A stretch of 38,184 nt of DNA from a virus. Shown here piece after piece: positions 8,159 through 34,283 of the stretch (position 1 is the stretch's first letter; the number at the start of each line of letters is the position of its first letter). Under the pieces are notes generated by a model that did no database searches, was not told where the DNA came from, and worked only from the letters and a program-made list of their open reading frames with translations. The DNA is taken from IMG/VR virus record IMGVR_UViG_3300042898_000689, positions 1-38,184 of that record; one strand, written 5' to 3'. The position numbers and the translations under genes were made by a program.

Positions 8159-11100
8159 TAGTTGTTCCCTTCTCCCAGCGCAGCAACCACAGCGGCCCAA
8201 TCAACCTTCTTTGTGGACGCAACATTCGTAAACGGAGAGTCCGAAGGCAAACCACCCTTGGGTTGCAGCAACGTCAAATACGGGCGCTTATCAGCAGCCG
8301 TTGGCTTAGATGCCAACGAAACCTGCTTCTGCCAATAATCGTAACCGCCGTAACCAAGTTTCTGAAGATCCTCAGCCATCTGGTCAATTTTCTTCTGACG
8401 AGCCCGAATCTCACCGTACTTATCAGACTGCGTGTTTGCACGCAACGACAAACCAAACGCCATGTTAAGAACAGTAACAGGCAAACGATCCTGATACCTA
8501 GGTTCATCAGGAAGCAAACGCTTTGCACGACCCAGCAACGGAAAGAACTGCTCCATAGCGTAAAGGTACTTGTCTTGAGCCATCAGGTTGCCGTTAATGT
8601 CACGTTCAGCGAAACCAAGGGTTTCCATGGCAGCACCCAAACCAGCCTTTTCGTAAGGGGTTGGAACCTGCACATATCCAAGGAACGGTGAAGACTCACC
8701 AAAATACAATTTGGTGTCCATAACCATTTCAACAGGAGTTTTAAGAACAGGGTTGACCTGCCCAAGCAGGTCATTCCAGTTGCCCAAAACATTAAGGTCC
8801 TTAATGGGCATATCAGGCATAAGATAAGTCTGGCCACCAGGAAGTGCAAATGGCAAACGAATATTCATTCGGTCACTCATCCACGAAGGAATCAAATCCT
8901 CAGGGTCCGACGCTGCCTCAATGGAATCCTTAGTTTCAACGTAACGAGCGTATGCTTTAGGGTTGCGGAAAACCATCTCCATCTGTGTCGGCAAGTTTTT
9001 TCGGAACCAAGTGTAAAACGGTGAAATCCGTTTCATGACGGAGTTTTCAAAATTGTTCAAATCGCTGTAATCAAAATGTGCTTTGAAAACAAGATCGTAG
9101 ATACCCTCAACGCCACGACCTGACTCAGCAGCATGAATAGCAGCACCACCACGCAACGTGCGTTCCATCTTACGGTTCATACTGTAAGTAGCACGGTTCA
9201 GCGGAGTATCAGCCAAGAACGTCAACACATCACGACGGCCACCAGCACCCGTAACCTGCTTCAAATCCGTTAGAGCATTCTCAACCTGACCGCCCAACTC
9301 CAAAACACCCGAAGCATGAACCATTCGATACGAGTCAGGCAAACCAGCCAAAGCCTCCTCAACAGTTTTGCCAGCATTAATAGCACGATTAAAAGCACGA
9401 TCAGCGCTCAAGAAGCGTTGCGTAGCACCAGGCGAAACTCCAAACAAATAATTCATATATATACCCGAATAACCGTTACGGGCAATAAATCCAGGAGTAG
9501 CAACAGCCCACGACTTAAACAAACGTGTGGCCCGATCAAAATACTTTAAGAAACTTGGCAACTCGTTAGGAGCAGTCACACGAGTCACCAACGCCATAGC
9601 ATCAGCAATATCCATAGGCGACTGTGAAGAACGTGAAATCTCAGCAAAACCCTTACGGACAATGTAACGAGCAGCCTCATCAGCCTTAGGTCCACGCAAC
9701 CAAACCGCATACTCGTAATCATCTGACGCTTTACCCAAACGGGTCAACGCCCGTTCCTCAGCGACCATCGCAATCTCAATAGCCCGCTGACCACGATTCA
9801 ACTCATCAAGACGCATACGAGCAGCATCATTAAACTCGCTAACCTTACGGTTCATGTTGTTATCAAACAACGCCTGCTTCTGCTTCTCAATCTTGCTAAG
9901 TTTCTGAGAGAAACCCTTAATGTTGGAATCAATCTCATCCAACTGAGCCAACTTATCAGCCTGCTGTGTAGTCAAACGCTTATTGGCCTTACCAACCTTA
10001 GTGATCTCAGCACGCAAATCATTAATCTTCTGCTGAGTCTTAGCCGACATACGCTTGGCCTTAGTGCCAGTAGCCGCAGTTCCAGGCTCCCCGCCCATAG
10101 CCTTAGCAGCGGCCTGCTTCGTTTGAGAAGCCTTAGTCATAGTCTTCATCGCAGCAGGATTATCAGCATTTGCGGCAGCAGCAGTCATAGCAGCAGGATC
10201 ATTGTCAGTCGCTTTAGCCATATCGGCCATAGCCTTTTTCTGAGCAGGCTCCATGCCCAACTCGCGAGTAACCTGCTTAATCACATCGTCAGTACTCTGG
10301 CTATCAATCGAACCGACAAGACGGATAACTTGCTCTTCAGTCAGACCGCTTGTGGTCGAAGCGAAACGTGCAACCTGAGCCGAATCCTCAGACAACTGAA
10401 CAGCCTGAACCGTACGCAACGAAGCCCGTTCGTAACGATTCTTAAACTCAAGGAACCTTGGATTAAGATTAGGATTCTCTCCAAAGTTGTTGGCGAATGA
10501 TGCTGACTCTTTTTCAGCATCATCCAAAGCCTTAGTCATGCGGCCAAACGCAACCTGTTCCTCCATCGCTGCCTCAGCAGCGTTGGCAGCACGAACATCA
10601 AGGTCAGCCACAAGTTTCTCAGTCTTAGCCAAACCTTCAAGTTCATCGTTTACAGCACGCCAATCAGACTTTGGCTCTCCACCCTTAAGTTCAGTACTGC
10701 GCGCACGATTTCTAGCCCGACGCATCTTAACGGTCTTATCGTTAATAGCAGTTTGAAGTTCACCACGCATAGCCTGAGTGTCATCAACATATTGCATAGT
10801 TGCTGTTTCCCACTCAGGGGTATAACCACCCTTAGGTGGTTCAGCAGTCCACGAACGTCCAGCAGAACCCAACCTAGGGTCAGCAGACATACGGGCCGCA
10901 GCATCCTGCGCCCGCAAATTATCCATGTATTCGTAAAAGCCCTTATTCTCCGCAGCCTGCATATCACGCAAAGCACCACGCATCTGCCACTCTGCAACAG
11001 CCATCTGTTCAGGAGAAGCCCCAATGTCACCCAAAGTTTTATGAGCGTCCCTTGCAGCCTCATACGCATCCTGACGGGCAATAACCTCAGGAACATCAGC

Positions 11101-14100
11101 AGCAGCCAAACGATTATTCTGCTGCAAATCAACAATCCGAGCCTGACGCTCAGGAGGCAAATCAGCCATAACCGACTGATATGTCACACCCTTGGGCTTG
11201 TTGTAAATAACAGTTTCAGGTTCAGTACCAGTAAAACCTTTATTTAAGAAAGGTTTATCACGCTTCAACTGCTGAAGCGCAGCCTCATTCTTAGCGACCT
11301 TTGCTTCCATCCTTGTGATAGCAGCAGTATCGCCAGAAGCCTCTTCAATCTTAGAAGCAACAAACGCAGCCCGATCAGACTCAGCGTTCTTTAACGCAGC
11401 CCTAGCCTTATCCAACTTGTTGCCAGCAGTCTTGGTCTTCTGGGCATTACGACCCGCAGCAGCAATCCTGAATTCTTCGGCAGCATCAGCAACAGCCTGA
11501 CGAGCCTTAATTACCTCAGGACCCTCACCTTGCAAACCTTTACGGGCAGCAGCAGCACCCCGACGAGCAGCCCTAGCCGACTCAACTTCACGTTTACCAG
11601 CAGCAATTGACGCTTCCAACTCGTTCCTAGAACGGATTGAAGTCCGAATCTCGTCTTCAGAAAAACGACTGAGACCCTGCATATTCTCAGGGTTAGCCAA
11701 CAAATCAGCAGGATTGAACTGTTGACCAGGAACCTCAGGGATCGCCTGAGGTTCTGGTATCGGCATTGCTTCAGGAATAGCCTCAGGCATTGCAGCAGGA
11801 ACCGCTTCAGGCACAGCAGCAGGTACGGTAGGCTTATAAGCAGCCAAATTCTTTTCAGCCTTAGCCAAAGCCTTTTGAGCAATAGCCAATTCTTTTTCAG
11901 CAGCCTTACCGCCCTGACCCATCTTCACAGCATTGGCAAGGTCATCAACCTCAAATTGCAGATCAGAAACATCACTAGCAAGTTTGTTCAACTCTGCATC
12001 AACCATTGTGGCCGACGGAACGGGAGCGGCAGCAGCCGCCTCAGCAGCATTGTCAGCCGCCGCAGCAGCGGCAGGAACAGCACCAGTAGCACCAGCAGCA
12101 GCCTGAGCAGCAGGAGCAGGTTCCTTCGGCAACAACTTCGCCAACTCCGCCTCAAGATCAGCAGCCTTAACCTGACCCTTAGCAACACGATCAGCCAAAG
12201 ACTCAACCTTCGACATTAACAACGCATGATCGTTCTGCAATTTCGTTAAAGCAGCACGATACTGAATTTGCTTAGGACTATCCTTAGGCACTTTGCCCGC
12301 GGCCACACGGATCTCATCCATCGCAGCAACAAGACGTTCATTTGCTTCACGAATAGCAACACGAGCCTCAGCCCGAACCATAATGCCAGACAAATACGCA
12401 TCCTCAGAACGCCCAATGGCGTTCATCAAACGATCAGCAGCCTGCTCAATTTTTCTTCTAGCCTTAGCAGGGCTCTTAGGATAATCCTTTAAGATCGTAT
12501 CCAACTCTGCGTTACCAGTCGGACGTGACCGCAAATACGCCGCTGCAACTTCTTCACCATGAGCAGCCGTGTACATACGCAAAGCACGACGCTGATTAGA
12601 AATATAATTTAGATCAAAAAGATCATACCCGAAAGTAGTTTTGTTTAACGCATTAACCTGCTCACGAACACTACGCCCAGCACGATCAGGTTTAAGGGTT
12701 TGAAACCGCACACTACTCTCAGGAGCAGTCTGATACTTAGAACGACCCTTTTTATCAACAACTCTAAAACGGGCAGTAGGTTCAGAAACATTCCGATTAT
12801 TTGTTAGAACCTCAAACTGGGCGTCACGGATAGCAGCATCACGGCCAGCCTTACCACGCCCAACACCAACACCAATAACATTACCCTGATCGTCTAAAAT
12901 CCGAGTAATATATTGTGTGGGATGACGCAAATCTTGATCTAAAAACTTGCGACCAACATCATAGTTGCGTCGCAAATCAGGACCAGCAGTACGTCCCTTA
13001 CCAGTATTCCTATAATTTTTACCTTGACCAACGCCAGCCGCAACAGCCTCATCAGTCAACTTTGACGCTTGGTGCATGGCAACATCGTCACCATAAATTG
13101 GCATCATCTGGTCTGCCCCAACACCAGCAGCATCCAACTGACGACCTCCAACCTCTATGGAGGTTGGCTTCCAAGACGCTTCAAACGCTTTAGCATCATC
13201 AACAAGCGTGGGATCAACAGCAGCAATACGCTGTGCAGCAGCAGCATTGCCACCCATAGCGTTATTCAAATCAACAGGATCAATATTCCCATTAAGAACA
13301 CGCTGTTCAATATCGCCAAGACCCTTAGCCTGCCTAAGTTCATAAGACGCCTCGCCACCAGAAGCAAGACGCTTAGCATCCTGAATATTACGAAACGCCA
13401 ACGCCTGTTCAGGAGTATCAGCGTTCAAAATCTTTCGCTTAATGCGACCTTCGCCACCAGCCCAACGAGGGCTCTCCCCAATCTCAGACATAATCCGAGA
13501 TGTTTTAATACTACCAAGAGTGTTAGACCCTGTGGACGAAATCTTACGCATCCAATCAGGACGCCCAAGATAAACCTGCTTCAACTCAGGAGCAGGACCA
13601 CCCAAAGTAGTAGAAACACGACTAGCAATACGACCAGTACCAGGAACGTTCCAATACAAACCACCCCGTAAAGGCTCATCAATAAGATTTGCCCCCTGAA
13701 GTTTGCCACCAAGCCAAGCCATATCAGACTTATCTAAGGCACCCAAACCACCTTGTCCCTTACGGACAAGGTTACCAGCGATAGTGGACAAACGAGCAGC
13801 GTCATCCACACTACCCGCAGCCCTAGCACTAATCGCTGCTGTTTCAGCCAACTTAGAGATACCTGAAGCACCACCAAGTTTAGTGATAACACCAGCACCA
13901 GCAAGATATGTTAAAGGATCAAGAGCAATAGAAGTACCAAGGCCAACACCAATTTTAGCAGCAGTAGGTAAATTTTTATACCAATCCTGAGTAGCAAAAA
14001 TTTCAGGAGGAGTAATGCCGCTACGAACGTCTTTAAGAAAGTTGCGATTAGGGTCTGCTGTCCTTGCGGCCGTTGCAGTAACTAATGTTAAAGGCAAACT

Positions 14101-21998: not shown

Positions 21999-22955
21999 TC
22001 AGGCAGTCTTGGCGGTGAGAACACCCTGACGAGCGCGGTTGCTAATCGTCAGTTCGCCGTAGCACAGGATTTGTGCGTAACGTGCATCTTGGTTGTTCGG
22101 ACGAACAAACGGAGTTGGCTTAAACCAGTTATCCGAGTGACCGACAAGACGGATGTACTTGGTGTTAAGGAAGTACATATCGCCAGCCGTGACATAGTTG
22201 TCATAAACAATAGGCGCACCCTTGAACAGAAGGTTCTGGAAACCACCATCAGCGGTCTTAGCGTCCATGAAACGCTCTTGTGGCTGAAGAAGGTCTTCAT
22301 ACTTCTCAAACAAAGCACGGGTCGTGAGAATCACGTTCGGCTGATCGTTGCCAGCAGAAACCGTGTTGTAAGCCGTACGCATCTGGGCGAGCGTAAGCGC
22401 ACCAGCAGACGTGTTCTTGTGGCCAGGAGCCCACCAAGTATCAGTAGCCTGATTGATGCCACCAATGTTGGTTGACGTGCTGTCTTTCACAAGGGCTTCA
22501 AGGCCAAGCCAATCCTTGCCAGAGTTGCCAGTAGCGTTAGAGGTAAGACCCGACGAAATAAACATCTGGTCAAACTTTTCGGTAATGGTTTCTTCCGCTT
22601 GGAAGGTCTTCGCCTCAAGAAGATCAATGATCTGCTCTTCTGAGTTGTTCTGTGCTTCTTCGATACCAGAAATGGTGATCGACGCAGCGTACTGCTTCCA
22701 GTTGAACTCAGCAGAGGTGATACCAGTCTGCGGAGTAATGTTGATCGTGTCATACGCCGAGTATGACGCAGCAGTACCGTTCTGTCCGTAAAGAAGCGGG
22801 AGGACGATCTTAGAACCACCAGAGATGGTACGGACCTGACCAGCCTGCTTCAGAAAGTAAACAAACGGACGTGCCGAAAACACGTTATCAACCAACTTAG
22901 GCATGTGGTTCGCCAGAGTGGTTGAAAGGATTGTATCGTAATTAGGGTTAGGCAT
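21999..22955 (-). CDS. Major capsid protein
   Basis: 318 aa. It opens PNPNYDTILSTTLANHMPKL, followed by FSARPFVYFLKQAGQVRTIS and GGSKIVLPLLYGQNGTAASY, the pattern of HK97-fold coat proteins with a short N-arm. The end has VRLVGHSDNWFKPTPFVRPN, a typical A-domain/P-loop region. It follows the scaffold gene by 25 nt with a good AAGGATAAGA ribosome-binding site, and is followed by the strong hairpin at 21943. It would form the icosahedral shell. Which coat subfamily it belongs to needs profile comparison. Confidence 0.9.
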   Translation of the reverse strand: MPNPNYDTILSTTLANHMPKLVDNVFSARPFVYFLKQAGQVRTISGGSKIVLPLLYGQNGTAASYSAYDTINITPQTGITSAEFNWKQYAASITISGIEEAQNNSEEQIIDLLEAKTFQAEETITEKFDQMFISSGLTSNATGNSGKDWLGLEALVKDSTSTNIGGINQATDTWWAPGHKNTSAGALTLAQMRTAYNTVSAGNDQPNVILTTRALFEKYEDLLQPQERFMDAKTADGGFQNLLFKGAPIVYDNYVTAGDMYFLNTKYIRLVGHSDNWFKPTPFVRPNNQDARYAQILCYGELTISNRARQGVLTAKTA

Positions 22956-23841: not shown

Positions 23842-25815
23842 TTAAAGTTGCAAGCCCATTTGGTTTTGCAACTGAGCAAGCAATTCAGGAGGCAAACCGC
23901 CCTGACCAGTTTGTGACATATTGGTTTGCGGAGCAGGTTGCATACCCGCTTGTTCCATACCGCCAGCATTTTGAGCAGCCAACAAATCCATAGGATTCAT
24001 TTGCTCACCATTCATGCCAGGTTCACCCTTAGGTGGACCCATACCAGCATCAGGACCCATAGGCATAGCATTAGGGTCCTGTGGCATAGGTTGACCGTCA
24101 GGTCCCATAGCCATTGGCGGAGGCGGAGGCATCATAAATTTGCCTGGAGATTTAATACCAAAACCAAACTGAAGCACATGCTTAGCAATCTGCTGAGGAT
24201 CAATAACAGACCCAATAAGCGGAGCCAAACTATTCATCATTGCAACAGCCTGCTGACGACGGAAAGTATCATTCTGTGGCTGAGTAGAACCGCCCTCAAC
24301 TTGGAAATCAAACTCACCCTCAATGTCATCAGGTGTAAAATCAAACCAAAACTGTTGACCCTCAGCACCAACAATGCGTGCAGCCTGCTCACCAGTCATA
24401 TACTGCTGAGCCAACTGAACGATCTTGCGAGCAATATTGCCAATAGCAAGTTCGATCAAAGCCAACTTATCCGCAGACCTAGCGTTACTGGCATCCTGAA
24501 TCATCGCTGCTTCAGTAGCAGTACGGCGCACCTCAGGGGTTGCGCCACGAGCGTATTCATTCACACCCGAAACCTTATCCATATCAGCCTCAATGATTTG
24601 GCTGTACTGATAAAGATCACCAGACATGGGAGTAATCGGAACAGGCAAAATAACATCACCAAGAGGCTGATTGTCATCAACAACCTCAATAGCAACGTTA
24701 TCTTCGTTAGATTCAAGCCCTTGACGGCCTTCAGGTCCAAGCGCAGAAGCACGGTACAGATATTTGCGACCGTACTTCTTACGATGGTTCATCATTTGTG
24801 AACGAGTCTTGTTAAGTTCCTGTTGGGGAGCCTCAATCATTTCAAGATCACCGATGGGGTAAAACTCATCGGGGATTTCGTAGTTTGCAATAAACTCGTA
24901 AGGATGGCCAAACTCGTATGGCATTTCCTGAGGGTCAATTAGGAAATCATCTCCACCTTCAGCAAAAACAGAAATGGTTTCACGTTGAAGATCGTAGAAT
25001 TCCCAGACCGTAACACGTTGAATGTCGCTATCGACCTTACGTTTTTGATCTTGAGTCAACCAATCAGACGAAAGGACAGCATCAGCCTTCAGATCACGAC
25101 GGACCCGACCGTTGTAACGGCTGTCTTCCTTAACTTCCTCAATAGGACGGATAATGCGTTGAGCAATCCATTTAGCGTCTTCCAAAGACGTTGCTTCAGG
25201 GTCAACGAACATATCAAACGGAGAAACACGTTCCAAATACGGTTGATCCTCAAGGATAACCATCTTTGATTCAGGAACATTCGCTGCAATTTCCTCATCC
25301 GTAGGCACTTCATTGGCCATTTCAGGATTTTCCATTGCATATTCATCAGCCTGAGCAACCATTTCCTCAAACTGACCACGTTTTTCGCCTTCGGAAAGTT
25401 CTTCTTCCCCTTCAGCAAATTTATAACCAACTTTAATCCAACCGTGGCCGACAGTTAGAAAGTCTTTTGCGGCACGACGAAAAGGAGTGCGGAAATTGTA
25501 GTGTCTCCACCAGTAATTAATGACAGATTCAGTAATTACAGCACGATCCTCGTCCGCAGGACGATTAGCCATAACCTCAATCTTTGGATGATTGACAGTA
25601 ATGGACGGGAAAATTACGTTAATTGTTGAAAACGCAATATTGATCGCAATGCGATCTTCTTCGCCAATTCCCTTAGGGAAATGCTTGCCTTTATACAGGT
25701 CAAGCATACGTTCCCAAGTCTTATCCAAACCAGTTTCTTCGCGCCAACGCTTAGCGTGGTCAAGACGATTACGGTATCGCTTTAAAGATTCGGATTTAGA
25801 TATTTTTTTAGCCAT
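23842..25815 (-). CDS. Portal protein
   Basis: 657 aa, the usual length of podovirus portals. The N-terminal part, RWREETGLDKTWERMLDLYK and INIAFSTINVIFPSITVNHP, is the standard portal opening. The middle has PYLERVSPFDMFVDPEATSL, and the wing/crown helices include SQMMNHRKKYGRKYLYRAS and EVRRTATEAAMIQDASNARS. The C-terminus (about 565-657) is Pro/Met/Gln-rich and disordered. Twelve copies would form the packaging vertex that docks TerL and later the adaptor. The gene is followed immediately by the GGGACACTTTT element. Confidence 0.93.
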   Translation of the reverse strand: MAKKISKSESLKRYRNRLDHAKRWREETGLDKTWERMLDLYKGKHFPKGIGEEDRIAINIAFSTINVIFPSITVNHPKIEVMANRPADEDRAVITESVINYWWRHYNFRTPFRRAAKDFLTVGHGWIKVGYKFAEGEEELSEGEKRGQFEEMVAQADEYAMENPEMANEVPTDEEIAANVPESKMVILEDQPYLERVSPFDMFVDPEATSLEDAKWIAQRIIRPIEEVKEDSRYNGRVRRDLKADAVLSSDWLTQDQKRKVDSDIQRVTVWEFYDLQRETISVFAEGGDDFLIDPQEMPYEFGHPYEFIANYEIPDEFYPIGDLEMIEAPQQELNKTRSQMMNHRKKYGRKYLYRASALGPEGRQGLESNEDNVAIEVVDDNQPLGDVILPVPITPMSGDLYQYSQIIEADMDKVSGVNEYARGATPEVRRTATEAAMIQDASNARSADKLALIELAIGNIARKIVQLAQQYMTGEQAARIVGAEGQQFWFDFTPDDIEGEFDFQVEGGSTQPQNDTFRRQQAVAMMNSLAPLIGSVIDPQQIAKHVLQFGFGIKSPGKFMMPPPPPMAMGPDGQPMPQDPNAMPMGPDAGMGPPKGEPGMNGEQMNPMDLLAAQNAGGMEQAGMQPAPQTNMSQTGQGGLPPELLAQLQNQMGLQL

Positions 25816-26316: not shown

Positions 26317-27903
26317 TCAGCGTCTAGTGGAACTAGCCCCAATATTCCATTTGCTTTCATTACTGTCTTCCTCAGGCTTCAAATTAGCCCACCAATCAAC
26401 GGTCATATAGTTATCAACCTTCTCCTTGTACTCAGGAGCCCAAGCGTAACCAAGCATTTGATTGGCAATAGCCAAAGACATAACACGGTCGTCATGTGGA
26501 GAGCCACCCATAGCCCCACGTTCGTCACGGACGTAAGTCCGCAACTCACCTAAGGTTCCAGCGCACAACAACGTAATATCACGCTCACGGATAGCCCTAG
26601 CCAGTTCATCAATCATCAAAGGCTTAGTTGATTTGTTGGTATGCCAACCGTATTCGGTCATTGGGGTGTTGCCTTGAGTCGAATTTACCCGTCTGCGACG
26701 GAAAATTCGTTTATAACCTGCCCTACGAAGACTGGTAATCGTTGTTAAACCGTGGTTGTTGGATTCAATTCCAACCAAGGCGGTGTTATACCATGTTGCC
26801 AGTTTAAAGATTTCTTCACCAAATAGATCGGCGGGAATATGGCCGTGCCATTCGGCCACAACGTCCCCTGATTCGACCTCAATAACGTGGGCAGCGGAGT
26901 AGTCGCCCCAATCTAAACCTTCAGCAACGTCAGCACCAATAACGTACGCTTTGTGTGGCTGAGGGAACTCCCAAACCAGCACAGGGTCCAAAGCATCGTT
27001 GCTGTGGTTGGCAAGCCATTCAAAGTTACGCAACGATCCTCGTTGCACCAGCGTTCCAACACTAGGTTCTTCTGGTATGACCTTTGTCACAAGATCGTCA
27101 ACGTCGAAAACGGTACGACCAGACTTAATAAACGCTTCCTCGGCATTGCTAGGGTATTCCTGAGCCAACTGCCAACTGGTCATTGACCGCTTTTTGTTCT
27201 TATACCATTCTTGATCTCGTTCTTCATTAGCAGACCAAGGATAAAACATTGGTGAGAACTGGTTTGTGCGGGTTTCCGCTCCAACCCACATTTGGTGAAA
27301 GAAGTTACCGCTACCGTTTGCAGTACTGAGGCCAATGATTCGGCCACCAACGTCCGCAACAGGCTCAATAGAAGCCCACGCTTCTTCAGGATTAGGCAAG
27401 AACGCCCATTCATCCACAACAATCAACGTTGCCGATTCACCACGGGCAGGATCGGACGCACTAGGCATAGAGACAATTTGACTACCATTGTCAAAAACCA
27501 TTTTTTGCTGATGCTCAACTTGCGACTGTGGCCCACGTTCCAACATCCATTTCGGAAGGTTGCGGTAACCGTACTTTGTTTTCTTCAACAACAATACGGC
27601 TTCACGTTCAGTACGAGAAATATCAATAATGTTTTGATCTGATTTAAACCATGCCAACCAAAACTGATGGCCAGCCACCAAAGTAGTCCAACCAATCTGG
27701 CGAGCCTTAAGGGTTAATGAGTATCGTTCCCGACCCCATTCCTTTAAGGCTTCACGTTGCGCTTCACGCAACTTAAACAGGACACGACCGTCCTTAGGGT
27801 TCTGGATGTTCCAATAGTTTTCCAGAAAATAGGCTTCGTCTTTAACACATCTACGCCACTCAAGTTCCTGTTTCAACTCAAGTAGACGTGAACGATTAGC
27901 CAT
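26317..27903 (-). CDS. terL: Terminase large subunit
   Basis: 528 aa. ATPase: Walker A-type KARQIGWTT (66-74), Walker B LIVVDEWAF with Asp164/Glu165, coupling motif LSTANG (192-197). RNase H-like nuclease: Asp325 in VIGADVAEGLDWGDYS, Glu380 in ALVGIESNNHG, and Asp471/472 in GGSPHDDRVMSLAIA. It pumps DNA into the prohead through the portal and cuts concatemers. It overlaps the upstream membrane-protein gene by 8 nt. The headful or cos nature of packaging cannot be told from this gene alone. Confidence 0.96.
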   Translation of the reverse strand: MANRSRLLELKQELEWRRCVKDEAYFLENYWNIQNPKDGRVLFKLREAQREALKEWGRERYSLTLKARQIGWTTLVAGHQFWLAWFKSDQNIIDISRTEREAVLLLKKTKYGYRNLPKWMLERGPQSQVEHQQKMVFDNGSQIVSMPSASDPARGESATLIVVDEWAFLPNPEEAWASIEPVADVGGRIIGLSTANGSGNFFHQMWVGAETRTNQFSPMFYPWSANEERDQEWYKNKKRSMTSWQLAQEYPSNAEEAFIKSGRTVFDVDDLVTKVIPEEPSVGTLVQRGSLRNFEWLANHSNDALDPVLVWEFPQPHKAYVIGADVAEGLDWGDYSAAHVIEVESGDVVAEWHGHIPADLFGEEIFKLATWYNTALVGIESNNHGLTTITSLRRAGYKRIFRRRRVNSTQGNTPMTEYGWHTNKSTKPLMIDELARAIRERDITLLCAGTLGELRTYVRDERGAMGGSPHDDRVMSLAIANQMLGYAWAPEYKEKVDNYMTVDWWANLKPEEDSNESKWNIGASSTRR

Positions 27904-28747: not shown

Positions 28748-28923
28748 TACTTCTTCTTCTTCTTGGCTGCGTTCATATTGTCCACCAAATTAGGATAAGG
28801 ACGACCAGCCTTAACAGCAGACTTCTTAGCAGCAGCCTTCGCTGTGGGAGACAACTTCTTCGACGCACCCTTAGGTGCGGGCTTCTCCCAAACCATCTTC
28901 TTAGCAGCCATCTTCTTAGCCAT
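28747..28923 (-). CDS. Very basic Lys/Ala-rich 58-aa protein (histone-like tail)
   Basis: Just below common ORF cut-offs. It overlaps the small terminase stop by 8 nt and the next gene by TAATG, with TCCTC-complementary GAGGAATATA upstream. Sequence is KKMAAKKM, SKKLSPTAKAAAKKSAVKAG and a final run of five Lys. It resembles histone H1-like tails and may condense or neutralise DNA in the virion, or help the terminase hold DNA. Confidence 0.65.
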   Translation of the reverse strand: MAKKMAAKKMVWEKPAPKGASKKLSPTAKAAAKKSAVKAGRPYPNLVDNMNAAKKKKK

Positions 28924-29371
28924 TATATTCCTCCGTTAACTGACGCAACTCTGCAAGCAAATCCTCATCCGTAAGCGACTTCGTTTCAGTATCCTCAGAA
29001 CGAATAATACGCTTCGGCGTAAACCGATCAATATACTGCAAATACAAATTCGCAGCCTTAACATCCCCATTAATCGCAGCCTGATGCAAAGCATCAACAA
29101 CCGACTGAACACGATCAACCGAAATGTTCTTCTCCCTAGCCCGACGCTCCCACTCCTCCTGAAAACGTTTATCACGCTTCCAACGCTTCGGAGTATCAGG
29201 ATGAACCTTATTCTCCTCAGCCCACAAAGTACGATTCGACGGGTCCCTAGGATCAGACAACAACCAATCCAAAAACTTTGACTGCAACTCAGGCATCATC
29301 CAAGAGTTAGATTGGTTATCCCAATTCCAACCCTTGCCACCACCGTTACTGCCTTTCCAAGCATCTTCCAT
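28916..29371 (-). CDS. terS: Terminase small subunit
   Basis: 151 aa from ATG 29371. A frame opening at 29419 would run through the GGGACAGTTTT element and is unlikely. A start at the in-frame Met-Met of SWMMPELQ is also possible and would suit a promoter at the element. The domain after SKFLDWLLSDPRDPSNRTLW has the HTH EENKVHPDTPKRWKRDKRF and a helical oligomerisation part (VQSVVDALHQAAINGDVKAA, NLYLQYIDRFTPKR), as in phBC6A51-type small terminases. The acidic end is DEDLLAELRQLTEEYNG. It recognises phage DNA to start packaging. First gene of the late unit. Confidence 0.85.
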   Translation of the reverse strand: MEDAWKGSNGGGKGWNWDNQSNSWMMPELQSKFLDWLLSDPRDPSNRTLWAEENKVHPDTPKRWKRDKRFQEEWERRAREKNISVDRVQSVVDALHQAAINGDVKAANLYLQYIDRFTPKRIIRSEDTETKSLTDEDLLAELRQLTEEYNG

Positions 29372-29395
29372 ACAAACAACATAAAACTGTCCCAA
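29369..29395 (-). promoter_or_regulatory. GGGACA-type late element upstream of terS
   Basis: TTGGGACAGTTTTATGTTGT then TTGTATGG. It shares 22 of 24 positions with the element at 28413-28440. GGGACA is at 29393-29388 and TATGG follows 15 nt later, at the annotated terS ATG. Confidence 0.65.
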
Positions 29396-29540
29396 CACAG
29401 GGCAGACGCCCAGCGTCATTCGACGCTAGACGAATGGGCTGGGCTAGGTTGGGCTGGTCTGGTGAATGGCTGGACTTGTGATTGAACAAACCTGTGCCAT
29501 ACAGTATTCAGCCACATCACGAGTGAATTGTGTCACAAAA

Positions 29541-29564
29541 CACGAAAAACCTTTGTTTTTCGTG
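29541..29564 (+). promoter_or_regulatory. Perfect 10-bp inverted repeat next to the plus-strand GGGACA element
   Basis: CACGAAAAAC - CTTT - GTTTTTCGTG. It ends where GGGACA (29564-29569) begins, so it may be an operator controlling that element, or a terminator for minus-strand read-through. Confidence 0.5.
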
Positions 29565-29687
29565 GGACAGTATCACCTAATATATAGATGAGTGAGCAAC
29601 CACCTTTAGGTGGTGGTTGCGAACGAATACAGAACAGACAGTAAGTACTTAAGCACCCGACTAGACAAGATCTGGTCGGGTGTTTTT
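29564..29687 (+). ncRNA. Candidate short terminated transcript (leader peptide or small RNA)
   Basis: GGGACAGTATCACCTAATAT then ATAGATGAG has the same TATAGATGAG end as the element before 15962. Right after it is an 18-codon ORF (29588-29644, MSEQPPLGGGCERIQNRQ) containing the hairpin GCAACCACC/GGTGGTTGC (29596-29620). A rho-independent terminator follows at 29654-29687. The unit would give an RNA of about 100 nt that stops well before the AAA+ gene. Sequence signals are direct; expression is inferred. Confidence 0.5.
29654..29687 (+). terminator. Rho-independent terminator in the central regulatory region
   Basis: CACCCGACTAG pairs with CTGGTCGGGTG (11 bp, one G-U) around ACAAGAT and is followed by TTTTT. 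It is the clearest classic terminator in the window. It isolates the short unit at 29564 from the AAA+ operon. Confidence 0.85.
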
Positions 29688-30104
29688 ATGCCCAATAGCG
29701 TGTGTGCCATCCGTCACAGTATATCAACCACAAACCTGTGACCAGCACAAACCCTCAGACGCCCCCAAACGGGACAGGCAGTCTCAAATATGTCACGCAT
29801 AGGCTACCAAGTAATATATATATATACACACGCCCCCCACCCCCCCATCCCCCCCTCCTCTGTCATAGGGGGTCGCCGTGCGGTGCGATTACTCCCTATT
29901 TATTGTTTGCACTTTCTCGGTGCTGGCCCTGCCCCAGAACGGCGAGGGGGGGGACAGGCCCTAGCCTTGGGAACCGTACTAGGTCGGCTCGGATGGCAAG
30001 GGGCGCTTGGCGTTCCGTTAATGGTCCCGAATTCGGCTATAGTGGTGGTCGGCGGGGGAACCGTTCCCCTGCCATCTCATACCGTCCCGAAAGGACATAA
30101 GACA

Positions 30105-31370
30105 ATGGCAACTAAGGCACGAGACATTCATAGCATCGACACAAACGGTGTCACCTTTCATAGCCTGAATCACACCTTTACGACCTTTACCAAGTGGGCC
30201 GACATTCCTCGACCTGAACTAGTAAAGGTCTGGGCAATGACAAAGGTTCTGTTGGGCAAAGATTCCGTTCCCGCTGGGAATCCTCTTCACTTGTCGGCGG
30301 ATCTTCTCCGTTCGCACCTTGTAGCGGCTCACGGCGGAGAATCGGCACCTATCCCCGTTCCCGCCCCAGAATCGGCCACAGAGGACGCTACGGCGGCTCC
30401 TACGGCGGCTCCTGAGCCTGTCCCGACGAATAACGGCGGCGGCGGCGTTATTGATGCTCTGGCGGAATTCGTCAGGGTCACGGCGGCGGCGTCCGTTGAT
30501 GAGGACCGCGTGAAGGTTCTTATTGATGAGGCTCTAGCGGCTCTCCCGAAGGGTCACGGCGGCACCGTGATTAACGTCCCGAACCGTCCCGAACCGTACG
30601 AAACCGAGCAAGTGACCCATGAGCGTTTTGGGTTTCTTCTGTCGGTTCTGACGGCGAAAGGTGGGGCGGCTCTTCTGTCGGGTCCACCTTCAACGGGTAA
30701 GAGCCATGCGGCGGAGATGGCGGCGGAGGCTCTGGGAATTCGATTCGTAGGAATGCTGGCGTGTAGTCCCGACGTAATGCCATCGTCCTTAAAGGGATTC
30801 ATGAACGCGAACGGTGTCTATGTCGGCACCCCGTTCCGTGACGCTTACGAGAACGGCGGACTATTCGTTATTGACGAAGCGGACAACGCTCCCAGCGCCA
30901 TCACGGTCGGGATCGTCAATACGGCTCTAGAATCGTCGGTCCTTACGTTCCCAGACACAACCGTAAAGAAGCACCCCGAATTCAAGGTGATCGCTACGGC
31001 GAACACCTTTGGGACAGGACCTACGGCGGCATTCGCTGGGCGGTTCGCCATTGATGCATCGACACAGACCCGATTCGCCCGAATTTACTGGAATTATTCG
31101 GAGCGTGTCGATCATGCCGTTATTGCATCGTCTGGGGCTCCTTCCGCCATCGTGGACGGCGTAGTCGCCGCGATGGTGACCATTCGGGCCAACATTGAAC
31201 GGTGCGGATTTCGTATGTTCTGCACCTCCCGCGAGGGTCGTTTGGCGGCTCAATTGCTGGCAATGGGTGAAACATGGGCCGACGTGTTGGAGGCGTGCCT
31301 TATCCCAGCGGGAACGTCGGACGATCAGCGTCGCCAGATTCTCGATGGCGTCCGCCCCGTGTCGGCCTGA
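30105..31370 (+). CDS. AAA+ ATPase, MoxR/CobS-like
   Basis: 421 aa from ATG 30105 (SD GAAAGGAC); the frame is open to 29790 but that part is low-complexity leader. An N-terminal unknown domain (1-80) and a Pro/Ala linker (81-112) come first. The AAA+ module has Walker A GPPSTGKS (193-200), Walker B LFVIDEAD (253-260), sensor-1 Asn300 in VIATANTFGTG, and an Arg-finger-type region (DASTQTRFARIYW). MoxR/CobS-type ATPases usually work with a VWA-domain partner; the next gene, also heavy in GCN/GGC codons, is a candidate. This gene heads the early operon and is visibly richer in GC than most of the window. Confidence 0.88.
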   Translation: MATKARDIHSIDTNGVTFHSLNHTFTTFTKWADIPRPELVKVWAMTKVLLGKDSVPAGNPLHLSADLLRSHLVAAHGGESAPIPVPAPESATEDATAAPTAAPEPVPTNNGGGGVIDALAEFVRVTAAASVDEDRVKVLIDEALAALPKGHGGTVINVPNRPEPYETEQVTHERFGFLLSVLTAKGGAALLSGPPSTGKSHAAEMAAEALGIRFVGMLACSPDVMPSSLKGFMNANGVYVGTPFRDAYENGGLFVIDEADNAPSAITVGIVNTALESSVLTFPDTTVKKHPEFKVIATANTFGTGPTAAFAGRFAIDASTQTRFARIYWNYSERVDHAVIASSGAPSAIVDGVVAAMVTIRANIERCGFRMFCTSREGRLAAQLLAMGETWADVLEACLIPAGTSDDQRRQILDGVRPVSA

Positions 31371-33622: not shown

Positions 33623-33931
33623 ATGAACGAGTCCGCACTAATCCACATGATGACCGAAGAAATCCCAACCGATAACGAACGGCTCGCTGCCACAATAACG
33701 GCGAACCGTGCGCTGGCACAGTCAGGGCTGTACACGCTCAGCCATTACAACGGGAACCACGCCTGCTGGGACCTTAATCCTGACGCAGATATGCTGGCGA
33801 TCTTCCCGCCGCCTGTGCTGGCCATGATTGTCGAATTCGCTACCCATGTCGTCACGACAAGGTGCGAGGAGAACATCCTCGCCGTTAGCGGTAACAACGA
33901 GGAGATGGTCTTTCACGCTTCGATGGATTAA
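33623..33931 (+). CDS. Small protein between hammerheads B and C, unknown function
   Basis: 102 aa, SD AACGAAAGGGCAATACC. Contains IPTDNERLAATITANRALAQ, SHYNGNHACWDLNPDADMLA and FPPPVLAMIVEFATHVVTTR. Mixed alpha/beta, no motif recognised. The stop is 1 nt before hammerhead C. Confidence 0.72.
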   Translation: MNESALIHMMTEEIPTDNERLAATITANRALAQSGLYTLSHYNGNHACWDLNPDADMLAIFPPPVLAMIVEFATHVVTTRCEENILAVSGNNEEMVFHASMD

Positions 33932-34010: not shown

Positions 34011-34283
34011 ATGGAAACCTTTAACGTGGAATTGAAGTTGACTGTGGCTGAAGCCCAGACTCTTTCCAGAATCCTTGAATTTAAGGTCGGAGTGGAACAA
34101 GGTCTGGTGGACCAGTACACCAAGCGTTTGGCTGAGGCCGACGATGGCCACGGTAACCCTAAAGAGTTGCTGGGCAAACTCATTAACGAGGGCCGTGGTG
34201 AGCATAAGAAGATCAGTTATCTGCTGGGTGTCATTAACAGCGCCACCAAGGACGCACAGGAACGCACTAGCGAACCGTTCTGA
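34011..34283 (+). CDS. Small helical protein after hammerhead C, paralogue of 33308 gene
   Basis: 90 aa: METFNVELKLTVAEAQTLSR, ILEFKVGVEQGLVDQYTKRL, ... EHKKISYLLGVINSATKDAQ. Same length class and N-terminal layout as the 33308 protein (beta strand, then TxAEAxxLxxIL... helix). SD CAGAAAGGC. Function unknown. Confidence 0.75.
   Translation: METFNVELKLTVAEAQTLSRILEFKVGVEQGLVDQYTKRLAEADDGHGNPKELLGKLINEGRGEHKKISYLLGVINSATKDAQERTSEPF

Follow-up and report, generated by a model that had tools for sequence, protein, structure and literature searches.

A conserved hairpin unit with tandem GA/GA modules, probably a structured noncoding RNA, between the terminase and putative early genes of a virus lineage

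The material analysed was a single virus record of 38,184 bases (the whole of which is hereafter called the window), and the unit studied was located on its plus strand at approximately 29481-29687. This position is a divergent gap, with the late genes, including the terminase, on the minus strand and a set of genes presumed to be early, as judged from their position and content, on the plus strand. The genes and the parts of the unit are listed below; relatives are given by locus number.

21999-22955, minus strand: major head protein (late gene)
23842-25815, minus strand: portal (late gene)
26317-27903, minus strand: TerL (late gene)
28916-29419, minus strand: TerS (phrog_2538, a weak match, E 4e-4)
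29481..29530, plus strand: possible promoter and RNA 5' end (by eye, TTGTGA...TACAGT and then a kept CAGCCAC)
29531..29569, plus strand: hairpin 1 (TGTC, inner 10-bp stem, GACA; contains the inverted repeat and GGGACA)
29570..29587, plus strand: A+U-rich linker with TATAG (identity 0.78/0.78/0.72 to L003/L002/L098)
29588..29628, plus strand: hairpin 2, the GA rod (from folding, module scan and covariation)
29629..29650, plus strand: variable linker (low identity in relatives)
29651..29687, plus strand: intrinsic terminator (15-bp stem and T5)
30105 onward, plus strand: genes for an AAA ATPase, DUF7192 and DUF932

When TerL of the window was compared with isolated phages, all matches were below 60%, and the best was 46.5% to MW202803, an environmental podovirus genome. 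The ATG of the next gene, at 30105, lies 418 bp past the unit (an earlier note on this DNA had given about 420 bp), and promoter-like sequence belonging to this gene was recognized by eye, both here and in several relatives. Between the unit and this gene, 29811-29870 consists of a (TA)n run and then a C-rich tract (read as G runs on the opposite strand); it is kept in nearly all relatives, including L134, which has no rod, and is perhaps an origin or promoter region. On the other side of the unit, a further inverted repeat (CTGTCCCAACACAGGGCAG, 29387-29405) is located just ahead of the point where TerS probably starts. Its half-sites resemble those of hairpin 1, and it is retained as TGTCC...GGACA in L003, L002, L108, and L099-L104. 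Farther along the plus strand, 33932-33994 matches the type II hammerhead ribozyme at 37.2 bits, the gathering score being 37. The match sits exactly in the gap between an ORF ending at 33931 and one starting at 34011, and contig L001, which is 98% identical, has it as well, at 38.9 bits.

The earlier note had read the unit as an inverted repeat, a GGGACA element, a TATAG, an 18-codon ORF with an internal hairpin, and a terminator. The inverted repeat is present (CACGAAAAAC-CTTT-GTTTTTCGTG, 29541-29564) and forms the inner 10-bp stem of hairpin 1 (29541-29550 with 29555-29564), outside of which TGTC at 29531-29534 pairs with GACA at 29566-29569. GGGACA was found at 29564-29569 as an arm of this longer hairpin and not as an element of its own, and TATAG at 29583-29587, absent from L108 and L025, is not a conserved promoter. 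The two motifs are 13 nt apart here and at other spacings in relatives; a promoter made up of them was rejected because of this variable spacing and because GGGACA is a hairpin 1 arm. A sigma-70 scan returned no site in 29481..29530, and no consensus promoter was found for the unit.

The hairpin within the ORF had been noted at 9 bp and proved longer, because two GA/GA internal loops extend its stem. The layout of hairpin 2 is AU-[GA]-GU-[GA]-GCAACCACC / GGUGGUUGC-[GA]-AC-[GA]-AU, in which the outer module joins 29590-29591 with 29625-29626 and the inner module joins 29594-29595 with 29621-29622. The modules of this rod are symmetric GA/GA mismatches with 2 bp between them, and we take them to be sheared G.A pairs, judging from such sequence contexts. 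When 29586-29690 was folded using RNAfold, the two inner spacers paired and the GA/GA modules formed 2x2 loops. The fold of this segment reached -43.4 kcal/mol, compared with -22.5 +/- 3.3 for 200 dinucleotide shuffles (z -6.3; 0/200 as good). A hairpin with two stacked GA/GA modules was found once in the window (both strands scanned); 60 first-order Markov surrogates, scanned on one strand each, contained none.

Relatives were also folded using RNAfold in 220-nt contexts. The rod extension formed fully in L002, L098, L105, L108, and L025, while in L028 four of the five GA loops closed (all five formed when this rod was folded alone over 81 nt). Only the inner GA loop was obtained in the window and L003, and the extension was not predicted for L128.

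An ATG at 29588 does open the 18-codon frame MSEQPPLGGGCERIQNRQ (29588-29644), as the earlier note had it, and this frame overlaps hairpin 2, which is what speaks for a leader-peptide attenuator. The frame itself is not conserved. Among nine lineage members read at the start-codon position, four have ATG, four GTG, and one GCG, and the frames that follow are 18, 71, 15, 31, 45, 7, 7, 3, and 78 codons long (the L105 length is a lower bound, its frame reaching the contig end). The reading frame also shifts within the hairpin in L105, and no Shine-Dalgarno-like sequence was seen in the 20 nt before the ORF start. The attenuator was rejected, since the conserved short ORF that it would translate ahead of its terminator was not found, and we consider it extremely improbable. 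Of the two readings offered earlier, a small RNA or an attenuator, the first survives as a conserved structured RNA with a terminator; of the early/late switch at which either was placed, what the analysis shows is the position between the two operons. Conservation in relatives had been proposed as a check on the fold or the peptide; it failed for the peptide, for which start codon, frame, and length all change among the nine members, and held for the fold, for which the hairpins are kept and their stems covary.

The conservation of the unit was followed in the lineage defined by TerS. A TerS-based search gave 16 loci, of which the gap was readable in 15 (the L130 contig starts at TerS), so that the lineage set comprised 16 viruses including the window. 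The position in this gap is conserved together with the structure: at least two stacked modules are present in 8/16 (window, L003, L002, L098, L105, L108, L025, and L028). Module counts are two in the window, three in L108, three in L025 (one of them GAA/GAA), and five in L028; the third module of L108 is in register and replaces two C-G pairs of the window. L128 has, by eye, one perfect module and a second with an A.A mismatch in the spacer. Six viruses (L099, L100, L101, L102, L103, and L104) carry a different, one-module hairpin, ACCGC-GA-GU-(GCA or GAA)-AC-GA-GCGGU, followed by a GAA/GAA-loop hairpin and then a terminator (L100, L101, and L104 were folded and the other three read by eye), and the gap of L134 holds no rod. 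No rod was seen in 11 printed gaps of farther TerL relatives, and a scan of all collected loci gave none there beyond weak two-module hits in L045, L075, and L076. In four of the farther relatives (L034, L037, L046, and L095), reading by eye showed a different hairpin in the gap from TerS to the plus-strand genes, whose stems covary and whose loop hardly changes (GUUCGUGAGAUAA or similar).

Pairing in hairpin 2 was counted in an alignment of six rows (five distinct), from which L025, L028, and L128 were excluded as their rod lengths differ. Of all cells, 96.9% pair. Both sides are altered in 4/13 pairs, compared with 1.5 in shuffles (2/500 reach four), while 8/13 pairs are invariant and hence uninformative on covariation. 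With these five distinct rows the covariation score was 0.262 versus 0.112 for shuffles (0/500 as high), and none of the slid registers of the alignment came near the observed score. Hairpin 1, folded separately for each member, forms in 8/9 lineage members with differing stem sequences; in L128 the inner stem forms and the outer TGTC/GACA does not, and L028 is without hairpin 1.

Identity to L003/L002/L098 was 1.00/0.97/0.85 for hairpin 1, 0.98/0.98/0.90 for hairpin 2, and 0.97/0.97/0.69 for the terminator, with 0.60/0.44/0.40 for the linker measured over 29629-29652. Values were 0.78/0.76/0.44 for 29481..29530 and 0.45/0.48/0.27 for the sequence upstream. The region just past the terminator was well kept (0.91/0.90/0.68), and conservation is therefore not limited to the unit.

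The terminator reported earlier is present, with a stem at 29651-29685 running into T5 at 29683-29687. A simple terminator scan did not list it, probably because its outer A-U pairs consume the T run. It is kept in L003, L002, L098, L025, and the L099-L104 group, and is weaker in L105. No T run was seen after the rod in L028 or L128, and the L108 contig stops before the terminator position.

With its two hairpins immediately ahead of a terminator, on the early side and in the early direction, the unit could also be a cis regulator of the early operon, in which hairpins of the nascent transcript decide whether the terminator is passed, either as an attenuator or as an antiterminator like HK022 put. 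Hairpins in the gap of L134 and of the L099-L104 group fit such a regulator. Against it, 418 bp separate the terminator from a gene with its own promoter-like sequence (by eye), and the leader peptide is not conserved; we regard this explanation as rather unlikely. We judge it quite unlikely that the unit is an insulator or end-protector, that is, a terminator with a nuclease-resistant hairpin that does no more than keep transcription of the two operons separate or stabilise an RNA end. The length of the rod, which differs freely among close relatives (two to five modules), its absence in L134, and terminator-like hairpins seen by eye in this gap in L031 would suit that role. A plain barrier needs no precise GA/GA symmetry, yet this symmetry is kept in L108, L025, L028, and the far relative L218 (below), and hairpin 1, which a plain barrier does not need, is kept as well.

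The unit adjoins TerS and lies beside the kept (TA)n/C-rich tract, as might be expected of a DNA-level element in which an extruded hairpin serves as a replication, packaging, or operator site. Half-site spacing in hairpin 1 runs from 24 to 40 nt overall, unlike a dimer operator, and most members carry a terminator of the same sense behind the unit. DNA folding parameters, which may undervalue G.A pairs, leave the GA extension open. A DNA-level role is very unlikely in our judgement. An RNA of the plus strand is favoured because GA mismatches and T run have the same sense and because the DNA fold is open; this argument is modest, since RNA of the minus strand folds too, forming one of the two extra helices.

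Rods of this kind were also sought beyond the lineage. A scan for module letters returned 79 stretches. Those numbered L162 and up contained 12 hairpins with at least three modules, of which L218 and L228 were retained and 10 were set aside; the four with lower numbers (L146, L152, L159, and L160) were scanned with the 18 stretches described below. Those set aside were ATGA-type or similar simple repeats (L169 twice, L202, L205, L210, L215 twice, and L222), a GCAGAT repeat (L183), and a hairpin with a 13-nt loop (L175). L218, found by the pattern of module letters alone, carries a five-module rod and is a far relative of the window (TerS 41%, TerL 57% over one frame, portal 51%). Its rod adjoins the TerS gene on the opposite strand, with a terminator hairpin directly after it, and the fold there has z -2.7 (3/200 shuffles as good). 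Read from its first start codon, the TerS ORF would overlap this rod; because the TerS match begins at residue 105, the true TerS gene probably does not include the rod. The L228 rod (9372-9411, minus strand) is near three tRNA genes, between head-tail adaptor and head genes.

Another rod pattern matched 18 stretches, with at least three modules in L152 and L159 (the latter being the same contig as L028), two modules in L146, L161, and L154 (with its copies L155 and L157), and none in the other 11. Of 11 stretches matched by a first, short pattern, nine were unrelated and just two, L006 and L007, held the unit. A much longer run was that of L106/L109, with 13 consecutive complementary 2-bp spacers and 12 GA/GA modules plus one AA/GC. 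The L106 rod lies at about 11815-11960 (minus strand) in a large gap, has a fold z of -11.9, and is followed by a terminator-like hairpin; the L106/L109 contig is podovirus-like, with a portal (phrog_156) and TerL, and is not close to the window. Outside the lineage, module counts were three in L152, four in L228, and two in L154, and some of these outside rods may be convergent or repeat-derived. In contigs of cellular genomes the hairpin pattern matched nine stretches, about the number expected by chance (hand estimate). Five of the nine were, by eye, gap hairpins with one or two copies per genome, in Fibrobacter (L110, L118) and Deltaproteobacteria (L113, L115, L117), and we do not claim a relation between these and the phage unit. 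A DNA search of isolated phages and plasmids gave only short, chance-level matches to the unit and none to the L106 rod.

Known RNA families were searched using Rfam 15 at E 1, with 0 matches for window positions 29420-30110 and 0 for the L106 rod; at the Rfam gathering score, no rod match was obtained in 14 loci. Kink-turn and box C/D RNAs have tandem G.A pairs beside a Watson-Crick stem, as does the GA rod. The rod differs in having symmetric 2x2 loops repeated two to five times and no 3-nt bulge, and kink-turn membership was rejected as this bulge beside tandem G.A pairs was not found. HK022 put sites are RNA antiterminators in front of the genes they serve, where they suppress termination. 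They are, as the unit would be, phage RNA with two hairpins between operons that acts by structure; here, in contrast, a terminator follows at once and antitermination is not known for the unit. The phi29 packaging RNA is a structured phage RNA encoded near packaging genes, as the unit would be, but its fold is unlike, no Rfam match was found, and the lineage phages have ordinary TerS and TerL. A literature search brought up no phage RNA in which tandem GA modules repeat; this does not establish absence from print. The candidates of Weinberg et al. 2010 (PMC2864571) are intergenic RNA folds recognised through covariation, as is the present unit, and some occur in phages; in the part of that article consulted, a repeated GA/GA helix is not described and 'GA pairs' occurs 0 times.

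Taken from its sequence, the unit is very probably a small untranslated RNA, and we hold it highly probable that it is a conserved structured noncoding RNA. Such an RNA would be transcribed rightward out of the gap that separates the late and early operons, would be roughly 100-180 nt long with a hairpin at its 5' end, the GA rod at its centre, and the terminator hairpin last, and would be released at its own intrinsic terminator. It most likely works by shape, because the fold is kept while the letters of stems, loops, and linkers and the length of the rod change; the drifting loops and linkers disfavour an antisense seed. A protein partner is the simplest reading of an RNA that acts by shape. 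A protein of the host or of the phage would then bind to the surface of the rod, and the RNA may act in trans during infection as a scaffold or decoy. We infer transcription, protein binding, and action in trans, and the complete chain, from a discrete noncoding RNA through protein binding by the GA rod to a scaffold or decoy in trans, is offered tentatively, as slightly short of probable.

A wider proposal, possible though on the unlikely side, is that an undescribed class of phage RNAs is represented here, built on an adjustable helix of tandem G.A pairs and 2-bp spacers and found in unrelated viruses, where it perhaps occupies a host protein. Under this proposal the rods would recur in unrelated viruses (L106, and in shorter form L152 and L228), and the rod might occupy a host double-strand-RNA-binding or defence protein and at the same time withstand ordinary duplex cleavage.

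Phage noncoding RNAs are poorly catalogued, and the unit provides a concrete, testable case. If a small RNA is kept through its structure alone and its rod ranges from two to five modules, this would point to selection for a non-canonical helix geometry. The rod itself offers a bait for the protein partner as well as a sequence signature by which similar RNAs may be found.
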